Below are positions 12,830 to 17,533 of a DNA stretch of 64,000 nt, piece by piece. This DNA comes from Exiguobacterium sp. s122 (lineage in GTDB: Bacteria > Bacillota > Bacilli > Exiguobacteriales > Exiguobacteriaceae). Position 1 is the first letter of the stretch. The number at the start of each line of letters is the position of its first letter. The position numbers were made by a program, and so were the translations under genes. The notes beneath the pieces are model-generated. The model was not told the origin of the DNA and did not search any database. It was given only the letters and a program-made list of their open reading frames with translations. The stretch covers positions 124,001-188,000 of the forward strand of contig NZ_JACSMD010000003.1 of the NCBI RefSeq assembly GCF_018618475.1, read 5' to 3'.

Positions 12830-13804
12830 TTATGCTTTCGTCTTCCGTTTTTTCTTTTCAGCGATACGAGCTGCCTCGGCTTGTCGTTTCTCGGCGTAGC
12901 GAAGTTCGCGTTCGAGTTTGACGAAACTTTGGTAACGTTTCGCATCGAGTGTTCCCGATTCAATCGCTTGCCGAACCGCACAGCCTGGTTCTGCTTGATG
13001 CGAGCAGTCGCGGAACCGGCAGGCATCCGCAAGCGTTTCGATATCGCGGAACGTATCGTCGAGATGATCAGCCCCGTCCCAGAGACCGAACTCACGCATA
13101 CCCGGTGTATCGATGACGAACAAATCCTCGATTTGGAACAGCGCGCGATGTGTCGTCGTATGCTTGCCCCGTTCATCCCGTTCCCGGACAGCTTGGGTCG
13201 TTGCAATCGTCTCACCGGCGAGTGCGTTCGTGAGCGTCGATTTGCCGACACCGGATGAACCGACGAGCGCAATCGTGCTCCCACTCGGTAAAGCCATACA
13301 TAGCGACTCGACACCATCCCCGGTGAGTGAACTGACAGGAAAGACGTCGACTCCGGGGACCGTCAAGTGGATGTCGCCGACAAGTGTCTCTACATCATCG
13401 GCTTGATCGCTTTTTGTCAAGACGATGAGCGGTGTCGCGCCGGTCTCCCAAGCGGCGAGCGAGTAACGCTCGAGGCGGCGCAGGTTGAAGTCGTGGCCGC
13501 ACGCCATCGTGATTAAAATGAAATCGACGTTCGCGCAGATCAGCTGTTCGCGCGTCTCGTTGCCGGCCGCTGCCCGTGAAAGGACAGTGCGTCGTTCAAG
13601 GAGACGTCGAATCAAGCCTTGACCATGCTCGCGAACGGTGAATTCGACATAGTCACCGATGACGGGATAATCGCGCTCGCTCTCGGCCTCATGCCGAAAT
13701 TTTCCGGATACGCTACACGTGTAGGTTTCGTTCTCCGTCGTGACTGTGTACATATGTTGGAACTGTGCCGTGACACGTCCCGTTGTGCTTATTGTTTGAT
13801 TCAA
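12830..13804 (-). CDS. rsgA: RsgA-like small ribosomal subunit GTPase
   Basis: 324-residue circularly permuted GTPase: N-terminal OB fold, then G4 (TKSD), P-loop VGSSGVGKST, G3 DTPGMREFG, and a C-terminal zinc module CRFRDCSHQAEPGC. RsgA helps mature and release factors from the 30S subunit. I start it at the TTG at 13804: GGGAGGA lies six bases upstream, whereas the longer frame overlaps a leader ORF and has its ribosome site abutting the ATG. It stands alone, unlike the housekeeping yloQ-type copy usually next to prkC, so it may be a paralogue. Its leader looks like a translational attenuator. Confidence 0.88.
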   Translation of the reverse strand: MNQTISTTGRVTAQFQHMYTVTTENETYTCSVSGKFRHEAESERDYPVIGDYVEFTVREHGQGLIRRLLERRTVLSRAAAGNETREQLICANVDFILITMACGHDFNLRRLERYSLAAWETGATPLIVLTKSDQADDVETLVGDIHLTVPGVDVFPVSSLTGDGVESLCMALPSGSTIALVGSSGVGKSTLTNALAGETIATTQAVRERDERGKHTTTHRALFQIEDLFVIDTPGMREFGLWDGADHLDDTFRDIETLADACRFRDCSHQAEPGCAVRQAIESGTLDAKRYQSFVKLERELRYAEKRQAEAARIAEKKKRKTKA

Positions 13805-13810
13805 ATAGAA

Positions 13811-13844
13811 TCCTCCCTTTAGTAGTGGAGGACAGTCGCCCTCC
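13811..13844 (-). promoter_or_regulatory. Mutually exclusive leader hairpins over the rsgA ribosome binding site
   Basis: On the minus strand GGAGG (13844-13840), CCTCC (13831-13827) and the ribosome site GGGAGGA (13817-13811) occur in order. CCTCC can pair with the first element (seven pairs, four-base loop) or with the Shine-Dalgarno (six pairs, about ten-base loop). Only one pairing can exist at a time, and both elements lie in or next to the leader ORF. Confidence 0.6.
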
Positions 13845-13887
13845 GATTGGCTGACAAGGTCGGTACTGCATGGATTAGGGTGCTCAT
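13819..13887 (-). CDS. Leader peptide ORF of the RsgA-like gene
   Basis: 22 codons, beginning MSTLIHAVPT and ending RRATVLHY, with AAAGGATG upstream of its ATG. It is in a different frame from rsgA and stops two bases before the rsgA Shine-Dalgarno. Ribosomes on it would cover or uncover the CCTCC element. I do not recognise the peptide. Reading it as a regulatory leader is inference from position and structure. Confidence 0.5.
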   Translation of the reverse strand: MSTLIHAVPTLSANRRATVLHY

Positions 13888-13919
13888 AAAACATCATCCT
13901 TTCGTTGTTCGATAGCAGT

Positions 13920-13947
13920 AGTATACCACATCGATTGAGAACGCTAA
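13920..13947 (-). promoter_or_regulatory. Promoter of the leader-rsgA transcript
   Basis: Minus strand TTAGCG (13947-13942), 16-base spacer, TATACT (13925-13920). The predicted start near 13913 gives a leader of about 110 bases. Confidence 0.55.
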
Positions 13948-13950
13948 CAT

Positions 13951-13968
13951 CTCAGTCTTCAGACCGAG
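13951..13968. promoter_or_regulatory. Candidate LiaR operator
   Basis: Inverted repeat CTCAGTCT-TC-AGACCGAG with one mismatched pair, about 22 bases upstream of a weak -35 for liaI. A dyad at this place fits activation by the LiaR regulator encoded in the operon; it also lies just upstream of the divergent rsgA promoter. Confidence 0.45.
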
Positions 13969-14048: not shown

Positions 14049-14435
14049 ATGAATCGCCAGGTGAAGCAAGCGCTGTTCATCGTGGCCGCAATCTCTTTAG
14101 TTCTCGTTCTAATCGGCTTTTTACCAAATATGATTTTATTTGGTTTGGGGGCGCTCTTAGCACTGTGGGCTGGAGTCAGATTCATGGCTGTGACACATGT
14201 CGGCGCGAAAATCGGTTACGGCATACTCGCCGTAGTCGGGATACTCACTGTATTGTCGAACATTTGGGCATTGATCGGAATTTTGGTGGCATGGATCCTG
14301 TTTAAAGGGTATATGATGTATGCCAACCAAAAGCGGGATGTCGAGATTTTTAATGCGGACGGGTCACGTGCGAGTGGAAGAAGTAGCTTTCAATCGTTTG
14401 ACCAAGTTTGGCAGAAGTTTGTAAACCGTCGCTAA
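14049..14435 (+). CDS. liaI: LiaI-like membrane anchor
   Basis: 128 residues with two or three close hydrophobic helices (roughly 8-45 and 55-90) and a hydrophilic C-terminus. In B. subtilis LiaI is a small membrane protein that anchors the LiaH phage-shock protein at the envelope under antibiotic stress. Identification rests on size, topology and place directly before a PspA-family gene and a LiaFSR module. AACGAGGAGGGATG provides the ribosome site. Confidence 0.75.
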   Translation: MNRQVKQALFIVAAISLVLVLIGFLPNMILFGLGALLALWAGVRFMAVTHVGAKIGYGILAVVGILTVLSNIWALIGILVAWILFKGYMMYANQKRDVEIFNADGSRASGRSSFQSFDQVWQKFVNRR

Positions 14436-14457
14436 GATTCACAAGGAGGATACGATG

Positions 14458-15102
14458 ATGAAGACACCATTTGACCAGTTTCGTGATTTAGCTAATGAGT
14501 TGACGAAAGAGATATCGAAAGAAATGAAGAAGTATCAAGACAAAGAAGCCCCGCGTACGAGTGGCGAAGCCGAGTTGAACCGTCATATCCGCGGTGCTGA
14601 AAAAGAAGCGTTGTCGGTGGAGCGTCTCGTCGAGCGTCAAAAAACGTTGCTTGACGAATTGGCGACAAAACGAGATGACGCCAAACAGATGGCCGATAAG
14701 CGCTATGAGCAGACGGAATTGGCGAAAAAAGCAGGCGAAGAGAAGTTGGCAGAACGGGCCGCTCTCGAGTCGAAGCATTACGGGGAACAATACCGTTATT
14801 TCGAAGGCTTGATCGATGAAGGAACGCGGGAACTCGACGCCCTCGAGCGACGCGCCCTTGAAATGCGCTTGAAGCTCGATGAAATGCAAAACAAACGGTA
14901 CGAGTTTGCGATGCGTCAAAACATGGACTTGTTGAAAGGTGCGCTCGACCAAATCTTTGGAGCAGATCCATCGAAATCGCATCCGTTCACAGAAGAGGAA
15001 GAAAAGAAAGAGTCAACTTCAGAAGAATCAATCGATTCGGCAGATGAGGATGACTTCGAAGCAAAACTGAAAGAACTTGAGCGTCGTTTCAAACAAGACT
15101 GA
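14458..15102 (+). CDS. liaH: LiaH-like PspA/IM30 family protein
   Basis: About 214 residues, almost entirely charged alpha-helical coiled coil, with a disordered acidic tail (EEEEKKESTSEESIDS near the end) before a final helix. PspA/LiaH proteins form large ring-like oligomers on damaged membranes. Two adjacent ATGs (14455 and 14458) are possible; the second lies seven bases from AAGGAGGA. It follows liaI by 22 bases, and a terminator-like hairpin separates it from liaF. Confidence 0.82.
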   Translation: MKTPFDQFRDLANELTKEISKEMKKYQDKEAPRTSGEAELNRHIRGAEKEALSVERLVERQKTLLDELATKRDDAKQMADKRYEQTELAKKAGEEKLAERAALESKHYGEQYRYFEGLIDEGTRELDALERRALEMRLKLDEMQNKRYEFAMRQNMDLLKGALDQIFGADPSKSHPFTEEEEKKESTSEESIDSADEDDFEAKLKELERRFKQD

Positions 15103-15113
15103 CGCAACGGTTC

Positions 15114-15147
15114 AGCGATGGTCCGAGATAGGTTCGGACCATCGCTT
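15114..15147 (+). terminator. Partial terminator between liaH and liaF
   Basis: Stem AGCGATGGTCCGA / TCGGACCATCGCT with a short loop, then TTCTTTG. The tail is poor, so it probably lets some transcription through, giving more liaIH than liaFSR message, as described for B. subtilis. Confidence 0.75.
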
Positions 15148-15186
15148 CTTTGCTTCATCTTACATATTAGGAGAGGAGGAAGCCGG

Positions 15187-15879
15187 ATGGAACGTTGGAA
15201 CACACGCCAAATCATCGGATTTATGATTATCTTATTCGCCATCGGTCTATTCATCGATATCGTCACTGGCGGCAATAGCATTCTGTTCAGCATGATTTTA
15301 CCGCTACTTTTGCTTTACATCGGACGTCGCTTTAGCCGAAAAGGCAATCAGCCGGTCAGCTATGTCTTTTACGGCATCGGAGGCATCATGCTCGTCGGAC
15401 TCATCTTCTCATCGGCAGCGTTTGGGTTCGTTTTATCAGGACTTTTGCTCATGTTCGGGTATCGCCTTTATAAAAATCGTCCACTCGAATCGAATCGATT
15501 CCGCACCCATCTCCGGCAAGAGCAGGCGTTTTCGTTTGGCACGAAAGAGTCAGGACATTACGTGTTGAAAGACACGAACGAGTTCTTCTTACTTCGTGAT
15601 GTCGAAATGGACTTGTCTCGCGCCATCATTCCGGAAGGGGAGACGTTTTTACTGTTAAATGGACTCGCCGGTGACGTCCGCATCCTGATTCCGGCTGGGT
15701 ATGATTATTCGATTGATGCCTCGATTGGATTTGGGAAGATTCAAGTCGACGAATCGAACTATTCACCGGTCTTCAATCGTCGATTCTATACAGCGTCGGA
15801 CGACTATCCGACGGCGACACGCAAAGTCCGGATTCATATCGTGCTCATGAGCGGAAGTGTCGAGGTGATGACGGTATGA
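15187..15879 (+). CDS. liaF: LiaF-like inhibitor of the Lia two-component system
   Basis: 230 residues: four hydrophobic helices in the first 95 residues, then a soluble beta-rich C-terminal domain (for example GLAGDVRILIPAG and SIGFGKIQV) typical of LiaF/YvqF (DUF2154). LiaF keeps LiaS inactive without envelope stress. I start at the ATG at 15187, preceded by GAGAGGAGG. The stop overlaps the liaS start by four bases. Confidence 0.85.
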   Translation: MERWNTRQIIGFMIILFAIGLFIDIVTGGNSILFSMILPLLLLYIGRRFSRKGNQPVSYVFYGIGGIMLVGLIFSSAAFGFVLSGLLLMFGYRLYKNRPLESNRFRTHLRQEQAFSFGTKESGHYVLKDTNEFFLLRDVEMDLSRAIIPEGETFLLLNGLAGDVRILIPAGYDYSIDASIGFGKIQVDESNYSPVFNRRFYTASDDYPTATRKVRIHIVLMSGSVEVMTV

Positions 15880-16904
15880 AAAAAGATTCCTATCCAAGGA
15901 CGGTCGTCTGGCATCAACTATTCAGCAGCTTGTTGACGGCACTGTTCGTCACATCAGCCTTTTTAATAGGTGACTCGACTTCACTCCGAGATTTGTTTAC
16001 ACGTGAAGAAGGGTTGCCTTTCGGTGTGTCCATCCTCGTCATCGCCGTTTTGATTGGCAGTGTGTTCGGGGTCGGGTCCTACTTTTACTTACGTCGCGAT
16101 TTTCGAGAAGTCGCGAACGCCCTATGGAAATTAGAGAACCAAAAAGAAATCACGTTTCGTCCGTTGTCGCCTTATCGCGACACGTTAGAGCGAATCGTCC
16201 GGATCAGTAAACAACGGACCGAGATGGTCGAGGTCGCCAAACGCGTCGGGGACCGTCCCGTCAGCGTCGAGGAGGCGCGAAGTGAGGCGGTCGTTGAAGA
16301 GCGTCGCCGTGTGGCCCGCGAGTTGCACGACTCTGTCAGTCAACAACTGTACGCCATCTCGATGATGACGACGGCGGCCAAACAGACGATCAATGCCAAA
16401 CCGGACGTCGCCGCGAAACAAATCGCACAAGTCGAGGTCATGGCTCAAACCGCCCAAGCAGAGATGCGCTCGCTTCTTTTGCAACTGCGTCCTGTCGAGC
16501 TCGAAGGGATGACGCTGAAGACCGGGATTGAACGATTGTTAGAAGAGCTGTCCCGTAAACAATCGACTGAGCTTGTGTGGCGGCTTGAAGAAGTGCATTT
16601 ATCCCGTCACACCGAGAACGAACTGTTTCGAATCGTCCAAGAAGCGATCAGCAACACCCTCCGTCATGCCAAAGCGAAGCGACTCGAGATTGAGATGCGG
16701 ACCGTCCAACAGACGGTCATCTTGAAAATCAATGATGACGGCATCGGGTTTAATGTCGATGATACACAAGTCGCTTCATATGGCTTACAATCGATAAGAG
16801 AGAGAACGGCTGAGGTCGGTGGGACGTTACGTCTCGTGAGTGTCCCCGGTGCCGGTACTCAAATTGAAGTGCGCGTGAAACAACAAGTGGAGGGATTGGA
16901 ATGA
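15876..16904 (+). CDS. liaS: LiaS-like sensor histidine kinase
   Basis: 342-residue NarL-type kinase: two transmembrane helices (about 13-32 and 50-72) with a very short outside loop, HisKA_3 domain with phospho-acceptor His151 in VARELHDSVSQ, and HATPase motifs (ISNTLRHAKAK, DDGIGF). The tiny extracellular loop marks it as an intramembrane-sensing kinase. Overlaps liaF and liaR by four bases each. Confidence 0.9.
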   Translation: MKKDSYPRTVVWHQLFSSLLTALFVTSAFLIGDSTSLRDLFTREEGLPFGVSILVIAVLIGSVFGVGSYFYLRRDFREVANALWKLENQKEITFRPLSPYRDTLERIVRISKQRTEMVEVAKRVGDRPVSVEEARSEAVVEERRRVARELHDSVSQQLYAISMMTTAAKQTINAKPDVAAKQIAQVEVMAQTAQAEMRSLLLQLRPVELEGMTLKTGIERLLEELSRKQSTELVWRLEEVHLSRHTENELFRIVQEAISNTLRHAKAKRLEIEMRTVQQTVILKINDDGIGFNVDDTQVASYGLQSIRERTAEVGGTLRLVSVPGAGTQIEVRVKQQVEGLE

Positions 16905-17533
16905 TTCGAGTCGTATTAATTGATGACCACGAAATGGTCCGGGCCGGAGTGTCGGCTTTCTTGTCGACCCAACCGGATATTGAAGTCGTGGGCGAAGCCT
17001 CGGACGGGGCGACGGGCGCAGAACTCGCTATCGCGGAGAAACCGGACGTCGTTTTAATGGACCTCGTCATGGAGCCGGTCGACGGTGTCGAGTCGACGAA
17101 ACGCATTAAGGCGAGCTGGAAAGAGGCGAAGATTCTAGTCGTGACGAGCTTTTTGGATGATGAGAAAGTGTATCCGGTCATCGAGGCCGGGGCGATGAGT
17201 TACGTCTTGAAGACGGCGAACGCGAACGAGATTGCCGACGCCATCCGTCAGACGGCAGCCGGCAATCCCGTCATGGCCGCGCAAGTGACCGGGAAGATGC
17301 TCGAACGTCTCCGTCATCCGGAAACGACACTTCACGAGAGTCTGACGGCACGAGAGCGTGAGATTTTACAGCTGATGGCCGAAGGGAAAGCGAATCAAGT
17401 CATCGCCGACGAATTGTACATTTCGCTCAAGACGGTAAAGACACACGTGTCGAACATTTTGACGAAGCTCGACGTGTATGACCGGACCCAAGCCGTCGTC
17501 TATGCGTTCCAACATAATTTGGTGAGTAAATGA
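16901..17533 (+). CDS. liaR: LiaR-like NarL-family response regulator
   Basis: 210 residues: receiver domain with phospho-acceptor Asp54 in VLMDLVME, and C-terminal LuxR-type helix-turn-helix (LTAREREILQLMAEG, then SLKTVKTHVSNIL). Phosphorylated by LiaS, it probably activates its own operon through the dyad upstream of liaI. It overlaps liaS by four bases. Confidence 0.92.
   Translation: MIRVVLIDDHEMVRAGVSAFLSTQPDIEVVGEASDGATGAELAIAEKPDVVLMDLVMEPVDGVESTKRIKASWKEAKILVVTSFLDDEKVYPVIEAGAMSYVLKTANANEIADAIRQTAAGNPVMAAQVTGKMLERLRHPETTLHESLTAREREILQLMAEGKANQVIADELYISLKTVKTHVSNILTKLDVYDRTQAVVYAFQHNLVSK

Follow-up and report, generated by a model that had tools for sequence, protein, structure and literature searches.

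Results

A second rsgA gene preceded by a short leader ORF

The gene described here lies on the minus strand of the window, by which we mean the whole 64,000-nucleotide stretch of DNA that was analysed, and is preceded by a short ORF and a set of complementary segments (Table 1). RsgA has a role in 30S maturation, and to our knowledge the control of its cellular level has been little studied. The product of the gene, here called RsgA2, scored 168.7 bits against TIGR00157 (curated cut-off, 100) and contained the Pfam domains RsgA_N (PF16745; 38.5 bits, cut-off 27) and RsgA_GTPase (PF03193; 159.1 bits, cut-off 30), so that by curated score and domain content it is classified as an RsgA. The same genome encodes another RsgA on a different contig, 35% identical to RsgA2, in a gene flanked by a PASTA-kinase (prkC-like) ORF on one side and an rpe-like one on the other, neighbours that we named by eye. 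The initial annotation had proposed checking for a second rsgA near prkC; the canonical copy is indeed found there, elsewhere in the genome, and therefore the window gene is the second copy.

The same annotation had described an ORF of 22 codons, equipped with a Shine-Dalgarno (SD) sequence, that ends two bases before the SD of rsgA, and the minus-strand sequence confirmed it: the ORF lies 3' of GAAAGGATGATGTTTT, and its TAA is followed after two bases by GGAGG (13816-13812), the rsgA2 SD. The leader stop and the rsgA2 TTG are 14 bases apart. The GGAGGA of this SD was invariant among 36 aligned sequences, and the TTG, noted earlier as a weak start, was kept in 38/38 loci of the two genera compared below.

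Table 1 Features of the rsgA2 leader region
Feature	Position	Strand	Description
rsgA paralogue (RsgA2)	12830..13804	minus	TTG start at 13804, 324 aa
Leader ORF	13887-13819	minus	22 codons, encodes MSTLIHAVPTLSANRRATVLHY*; from the ORF list and the genus comparison
Leader Shine-Dalgarno region GAAAGGATGAT	13893..13903	minus	identical in 19/19 genomes of the genus
Extended -10 promoter element TGTGGTATACT (putative)	13920..13930	minus	read by eye in the sequence
S1, GGAGGGC	13844-13838	minus	leader codons 15-17; can pair with S2
S2, GTCCTCC	13833-13827	minus	leader codons 19-21; can pair with S1 or with the rsgA SD
S3, GGAGGAT	13816-13810	minus	SD of the rsgA paralogue; can pair with S2

A consensus promoter scan found no promoter at the leader; the extended -10 element came from reading by eye, and its pattern TGnTAnAnT recurs in 19/19 genomes of the genus. 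The leader RNA would start at about 13913. A terminator scan of the window detected none at the rsgA2 leader. At the gathering score, Rfam 15 gave 0 matches in the window, so that no family of that release was recognised, and at E 0.1 the sole match among 11 loci was tsr24 in L114 (28.9 bits; cut-off, 50).

In the window the rsgA2 frame is also open from ATG 13897, and one could suppose that there is no leader, that the gene is a 355-codon ORF starting at this ATG, and that its overlap with the short ORF is accidental. This is hardly credible, because only 326-328 codons of the extended frame are open in L007, L014, L016, L018, L019 and L020, whereas the leader frame spans 22 codons in all 19 genomes of the genus. 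We rejected ATG 13897 as the gene start on these grounds: several relatives have a stop in the extended frame shortly before the TTG.

Two further features adjoin the locus. A near-palindrome, CTCGGTCTGAAGACTGAG, occupies window positions 13951-13968, just upstream of the rsgA2 promoter and between divergent genes; its pattern, CTYRGTCT-NN-AGACYGA[GT], was present in 19/19 genomes of the genus and 0/19 of the sister genus. It may serve as an operator, conceivably for the regulator encoded nearby, which in our judgement resembles LiaR. The divergent gene row at 14049-17533 resembles a Lia/Psp envelope-stress module, with an lmo0954-family membrane protein, a PspA/LiaH-like protein (below both cut-offs), a LiaF-like C-terminal domain, a HisKA_3 kinase and a LuxR-type response regulator.

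Conservation of the leader in two genera

RsgA2 was present in 19/19 genomes of the window's genus, whose close named relatives are Exiguobacterium, and all 19 leader sequences were distinct. Their common length of 22 codons depends on using GATGTTTTATGAGC, a motif present in all of them, to place the start; an automatic rule chose another ATG in L016, L018 and L019. Codons 12-17 read S-A-N-R-R-A in 19/19, with pN 0 and pS 0.342, and the variable sites (third positions of codons 13, 14 and 17, first position of codon 15) were all synonymous. For codons 12-14, which lie outside the hairpin, pN was 0.000 and pS 0.386. The other two frames over codons 12-17 gave pN/pS ratios of 0.76 and 1.09, and codons 2-11 were nearly free (pN/pS 0.86). 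These values are suggestive rather than strong evidence for constraint on the peptide encoded by codons 12-17, because independent changes are few: the signal comes from three synonymous variants at codons 13-14, and the pairwise counts are not independent.

A chance ORF was ruled out by the conservation of length and codons, by the shuffles described below and by 25 control genes of the window, 5 of which passed the same strict leader rule. We also rejected an amino-acid attenuator, as no codon runs were seen by eye in the leaders. Across 28 genes of the window no sense codon is rarer than AGG (7 of 11,235 codons), the invariant codon of R16; a rare-codon pause there is only an idea, and S1 fixes the AGG sequence regardless.

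The sister genus had an RsgA2 orthologue in 19/19 genomes (52-55% identity), again behind a leader, of 21-22 codons, in 19/19. This length holds when the start is taken as the final in-frame ATG found no more than 14 bases past GGAGTG; an automatic rule took an in-frame ATG farther upstream in L073, L074, L077, L078, L080, L082, L083, L089 and L090. The peptide is unrelated to that of the window's genus, ending in QGGVSLP in 18/19 and in KGGIRLP in L072, and the S-A-N-R-R stretch was absent from the 19 leaders compared. In 18/19, S1:S2 is GGGAGGG/CCCTCCC, with one base different in L072, and S2 together with the loop (GGTTTCCCTCC) can pair with GGAGGAAACC across the SD and spacer.

Two competing helices predicted at the rsgA2 Shine-Dalgarno

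The idea that CCTCC in the leader can pair either with the GGAGG inside the ORF or with the rsgA SD was borne out by folding, which predicted both helices in 38/38 sequences of the two genera. The helices are predicted to be mutually exclusive, with one sequestering the rsgA2 SD: S1:S2 would leave the SD free of S2, and S2:S3 would bury it. When the helices of the window sequence (L001) were folded separately, their energies were -12.5 kcal/mol for S1:S2 and -11.3 kcal/mol for S2:S3. The corresponding values were -12.4 or -12.5 and -9.7 to -11.4 kcal/mol across the window's genus, and -12.7 to -16.0 and -12.9 to -15.5 kcal/mol in the sister genus; the gap between S1:S2 and S2:SD, also from separate folding, was about 1-3 kcal/mol in the former and below 2 kcal/mol in the latter. 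In folds of the whole leader, S1:S2 was the more probable helix in 10/19 sequences of the window's genus and 18/19 of the sister genus. For the window's own leader, the probabilities of S1:S2 and S2:SD were 0.45 and 0.49, and with other flanks 0.28 and 0.64. The stability of the 151-nt leader as a whole was not unusual (z -0.81; 38/200 shuffles folded as well), and this measure was set aside as uninformative.

Over 36 distinct sequences, 99.6% of the S1:S2 cells were paired compared with 85.7% in shuffles, and the covariation score was 0.504 against 0.257, a score that 0/500 shuffles reached. Sliding the alignment by one or two columns, or by +3, lowered pairing to 70-73%, and by -3 to 80.6%. 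Pairs changed on both sides numbered 3/7, which 208/500 shuffles also reached, and these changes hinge on the alignment register and on a single split between the genera. The alignment of relatives proposed in the initial annotation bore out the ORF and the pairings; the two-sided changes stayed at the level of shuffles. A functional leader or RNA switch very probably precedes rsgA2.

Modelled effect of ribosome position

To describe how a translating ribosome would act on these helices, we assumed a footprint of -14 to +15 around the P-site codon and refolded the leader with a ribosome at each codon, in six sequences first and then in all 38; the folds are equilibrium folds, without kinetics. 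In the window's genus, the mean probability that the SD is open was 0.28 (range 0.12-0.57) for the ribosome-free leader, 0.24-0.28 with the ribosome at codons 1-6, 0.44-0.56 at codons 7-10 and 0.50-0.63 at codons 16-19; codons 8-10 and 16-19 taken together also gave means of 0.50-0.63. With codons 11-14 in the P site the individual values were at most 0.17 in 19/19, and this SD-closed interval overlaps the conserved S-A-N stretch. In the sister genus, the mean was 0.56 without a ribosome, and at the 8th to 10th codon before the stop the value was at most 0.03 in 19/19. A ribosome on the last two or three leader codons itself covered the SD in the six-sequence model.

We lean towards reading the leader as a translational switch for RsgA2 that is controlled by the position of the ribosome. 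As the anatomy of a ribosome-position switch the arrangement is well supported; its translation, its inducer and its direction we infer. A ribosome with codons 11-14 in the P site would cover S1 and leave S2 exposed, and S2 would then close the SD (OFF). One held at codons 8-10 would leave S1:S2 formed and the SD at least half open on average (ON), and one at codons 16-19 would cover both arms, again leaving the SD at least half open, so that a 30S subunit could load (ON). Normal dwelling over S-A-N-R-R would keep RsgA2 low, and arrest elsewhere, or loss of the dwelling, would raise it. This assignment of ON and OFF, with dwelling at codons 11-14 repressing and arrest elsewhere relieving, is tentative, because in the model the ribosome-free leader of the window's genus is itself mostly closed. 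Since the SD is mostly closed both in that state and with a ribosome at codons 1-6, scarcity of ribosomes alone or a very early arrest would not open it. The natural signal may, equally tentatively, be ribosome-targeting drugs or defective 30S subunits.

A rival reading is an inducible attenuator of the ermC/cat type, in which a drug or another cue would arrest the ribosome with about R16/A17 in the P site, covering S1 and S2 and opening the SD, and in which the SD would be buried and expression low when the cue is absent. Such a stall would follow closely on the conserved S12-A17, and in the window's genus a ribosome at codons 16-19 abolished S2:SD without covering the SD (six-sequence model), with the SD open at 0.50-0.63 compared with 0.28 in the ribosome-free leader. 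According to PMC6310831, a leader ORF mediates the induction of HflXr, likewise the product of a duplicated gene for a ribosomal GTPase. However, this modelled gain is modest, no drug-arrest motif familiar to us was recognised in the leader, and the absence of S-A-N-R-R from the sister genus argues against this reading. We regard the ermC/cat-type reading as rather unlikely.

A simpler scheme would sense nothing: ribosomes finishing the leader would reinitiate at the TTG, and the hairpins would block independent initiation. The short distances from the leader stop to the SD (two bases) and to the TTG (14 bases past the stop) suit such translational coupling, as does the modelled removal of S2:SD by a ribosome on the last codons. 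Coupling needs no S1, yet S1:S2 is kept in 38/38, and we consider this scheme improbable.

Leaders before rsgA2 in other Bacilli and other classes

The class sample yielded this second RsgA at E 1e-45 or better in 187 of its 398 genomes, and the phylum sample in 46 of 199. From the 149 class genomes outside the window's family (187 minus 38) we chose 52 loci by hand, not at random; an SD-led ATG ORF of 8-60 codons preceded rsgA2 in 43 of these 52, whereas dinucleotide shuffles predict 13.0. The loci that did not pass this strict leader rule were L093, L105, L117, L119, L127, L131, L132, L133 and L139, and in L117, L119 and L127 a candidate leader was seen by eye despite the failure. The RsgA2 frame of L119 has an in-frame TGA soon after its likely start and may be a pseudogene or contain a sequence error. 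In Listeria monocytogenes, MAIVKMENLIINTGVFYL* was read by eye before a TTG-started rsgA. At L148, on a plasmid of Lysinibacillus fusiformis, rsgA adjoins an annotated fosfomycin-resistance gene.

When four named loci were added to the 52, to which the strict rule had been applied, an intrinsic terminator lay within 200 bases of rsgA2 in 28/56 Bacilli loci (5.1 expected), some of the 28 being upstream of the leader, where they may end the preceding gene (L121, L127, L147). The anti-SD helix score was at least 7 in 32/56 (13.2 expected). A selected group of 13 Bacilli loci has a long hairpin, GGTCACAGG-ATCCTC / GAGGATTC-CTGTGACC, between the leader start and the SD, in which 2/19 predicted pairs were changed on both sides, and a possible four-segment version in other Bacilli was read by eye (alignment A1).

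For other classes of the phylum we hand-picked 20 loci from the phylum matches, again not at random and with the shuffle expectation above covering only the 52 Bacilli loci; 10/20 passed the strict rule. Among the 10 that failed it, L155, L157 and L161 show a leader by eye, and in the clostridial Peptoclostridium acidaminophilum a leader-like ORF was likewise read by eye before rsgA. Seven of the leaders have 18 codons and share (E/K)-I and a later E-V (e.g., MFKTFNAEIAVKGEVAAE), that of L169 has 19 codons, and that of L170 has 20-21 codons and an unrelated peptide; the match in L171, far upstream of rsgA2, is probably due to chance. Tblastn matches to RsgA2 were also seen in Chloroflexi and Planctomycetota contigs and in plasmid-collection records of Rhizobium, Streptomyces, Deinococcus and Vibrio.

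Eleven of these 20 loci were folded. GGAGG lies inside the ORF and CCUCC beyond the leader stop, and the S1:S2 probability was about 1 in 8/11. RNAalifold on 10 of the 11 (alignment A3, with L170 left out) gave a weak consensus of -3.8 kcal/mol with 3/11 pairs changed on both sides, a weakness that perhaps comes from misalignment. The leader stop falls between the hairpin arms in L152, L154, L155, L157, L158, L160, L162, L163, L166 and L169, and an outer helix in some of these loci (ATAGCA/TGCTAT vs ATTGTAT/ATACAAT) seems to covary. These hairpins could be a new RNA family.

The position of S2 bears on the direction of the switch. With S2 placed past the leader stop, as in the other classes, the SD should be shut whenever a ribosome occupies the distal leader, and leader translation should repress; such an S2 should also escape cover by a ribosome stalled on S1, against what the ermC/cat-type reading would need. 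Translational coupling leaves unexplained those leaders that end at least 50 bases upstream of rsgA2, with terminators or other helices, in other genomes. The designs predicted before rsgA2 are a three-segment SD switch (Exiguobacterium, other classes) and longer SD-sequestering structures together with terminators (other Bacilli). Leader-peptide control through several RNA designs may be the general rule for second-copy RsgA in the phylum, a reading on which we are close to undecided; a back-up 30S assembly GTPase would then be made according to the state of the translating ribosomes.

Discussion

If second-copy RsgA is generally controlled by such leaders, the result would be a circuit for ribosome assembly that serves homeostasis or the drug response, of which we found no earlier description. 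The leader layouts suggest that cells tune RsgA2 to the state of their own ribosomes, and an RsgA paralogue under leader control, with leaders at loci of many families, would connect the behaviour of ribosomes to their assembly in a directly testable way. The parallel with HflXr and VmlR makes RsgA2 a candidate for a role in how cells respond to ribosome-targeting drugs. HflXr is a duplicated ribosomal GTPase under leader-ORF control that confers drug resistance, as described in the portion of PMC6310831 available to us. A Staphylococcus aureus rsgA mutant is listed as antibiotic tolerant in the accessible part of a review (PMC10117726), and therefore the level of RsgA can matter for the drug response.

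Leader-peptide attenuation is a known kind of system. The initial annotation knew of no description of it for rsgA, and we likewise found none in the full-text literature searched or in Rfam 15, while an earlier report could exist elsewhere; this applies to the use for RsgA, to the compact three-segment switch in the last leader codons and to its recurrence in the class and beyond. The portions available to us of PMC10219788, PMC6310831, PMC9226507, PMC6912228, PMC8632094, PMC2965389, PMC8079631, PMC10502375 and PMC10117726 contain no rsgA leader, and in the retrieved text of papers with both 'rsgA' and 'leader peptide' the latter term was confined to reference lists.

Translational attenuators of the ermC type, to which cat-86 also belongs, served for comparison. 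The ermC (PMC10219788, in the part available) and cat-86 attenuators and the rsgA2 leader are alike in having a short ORF, alternative helices and a sequestered SD. The translational-attenuator layout first proposed for the window survives in its conserved leader, competing helices and TTG. Three segments were recognised rather than the four of ermC, the ermC-type arrangement of 1:2 plus 3:4 at rest and 2:3 on induction was not seen in the window, and the two arms of the switch are found within the final leader codons. The target also differs, being a ribosome-assembly GTPase in the window.

Comparable in target are rli80-hflXr of Listeria monocytogenes (PMC6310831) and, in Bacillales, the uORFC-6-1 motif found ahead of hflX (PMC8632094), which, in the portions of these papers available, also place a leader ORF before a ribosome-binding GTPase; hflXr is moreover a second copy beside another hflX homologue. 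Control of hflXr is described there as premature termination with an RLR motif, whereas the window has a predicted SD sequestration and neither a terminator by scan nor an RLR motif; terminators do occur at some rsgA2 loci of Bacilli. The vmlR leader of Bacillus subtilis, as far as the available text of PMC9226507 describes it, combines a uORF with an SD-sequestering hairpin as in the window and differs in its tripeptide uORF, separate stem-loops, terminator and target, an ABCF resistance factor. Among the rsgA2 leaders, the common logic would be a choice set by where a ribosome stands on the leader, between a helix that leaves the SD free, or allows RNA polymerase through, and one that does not.
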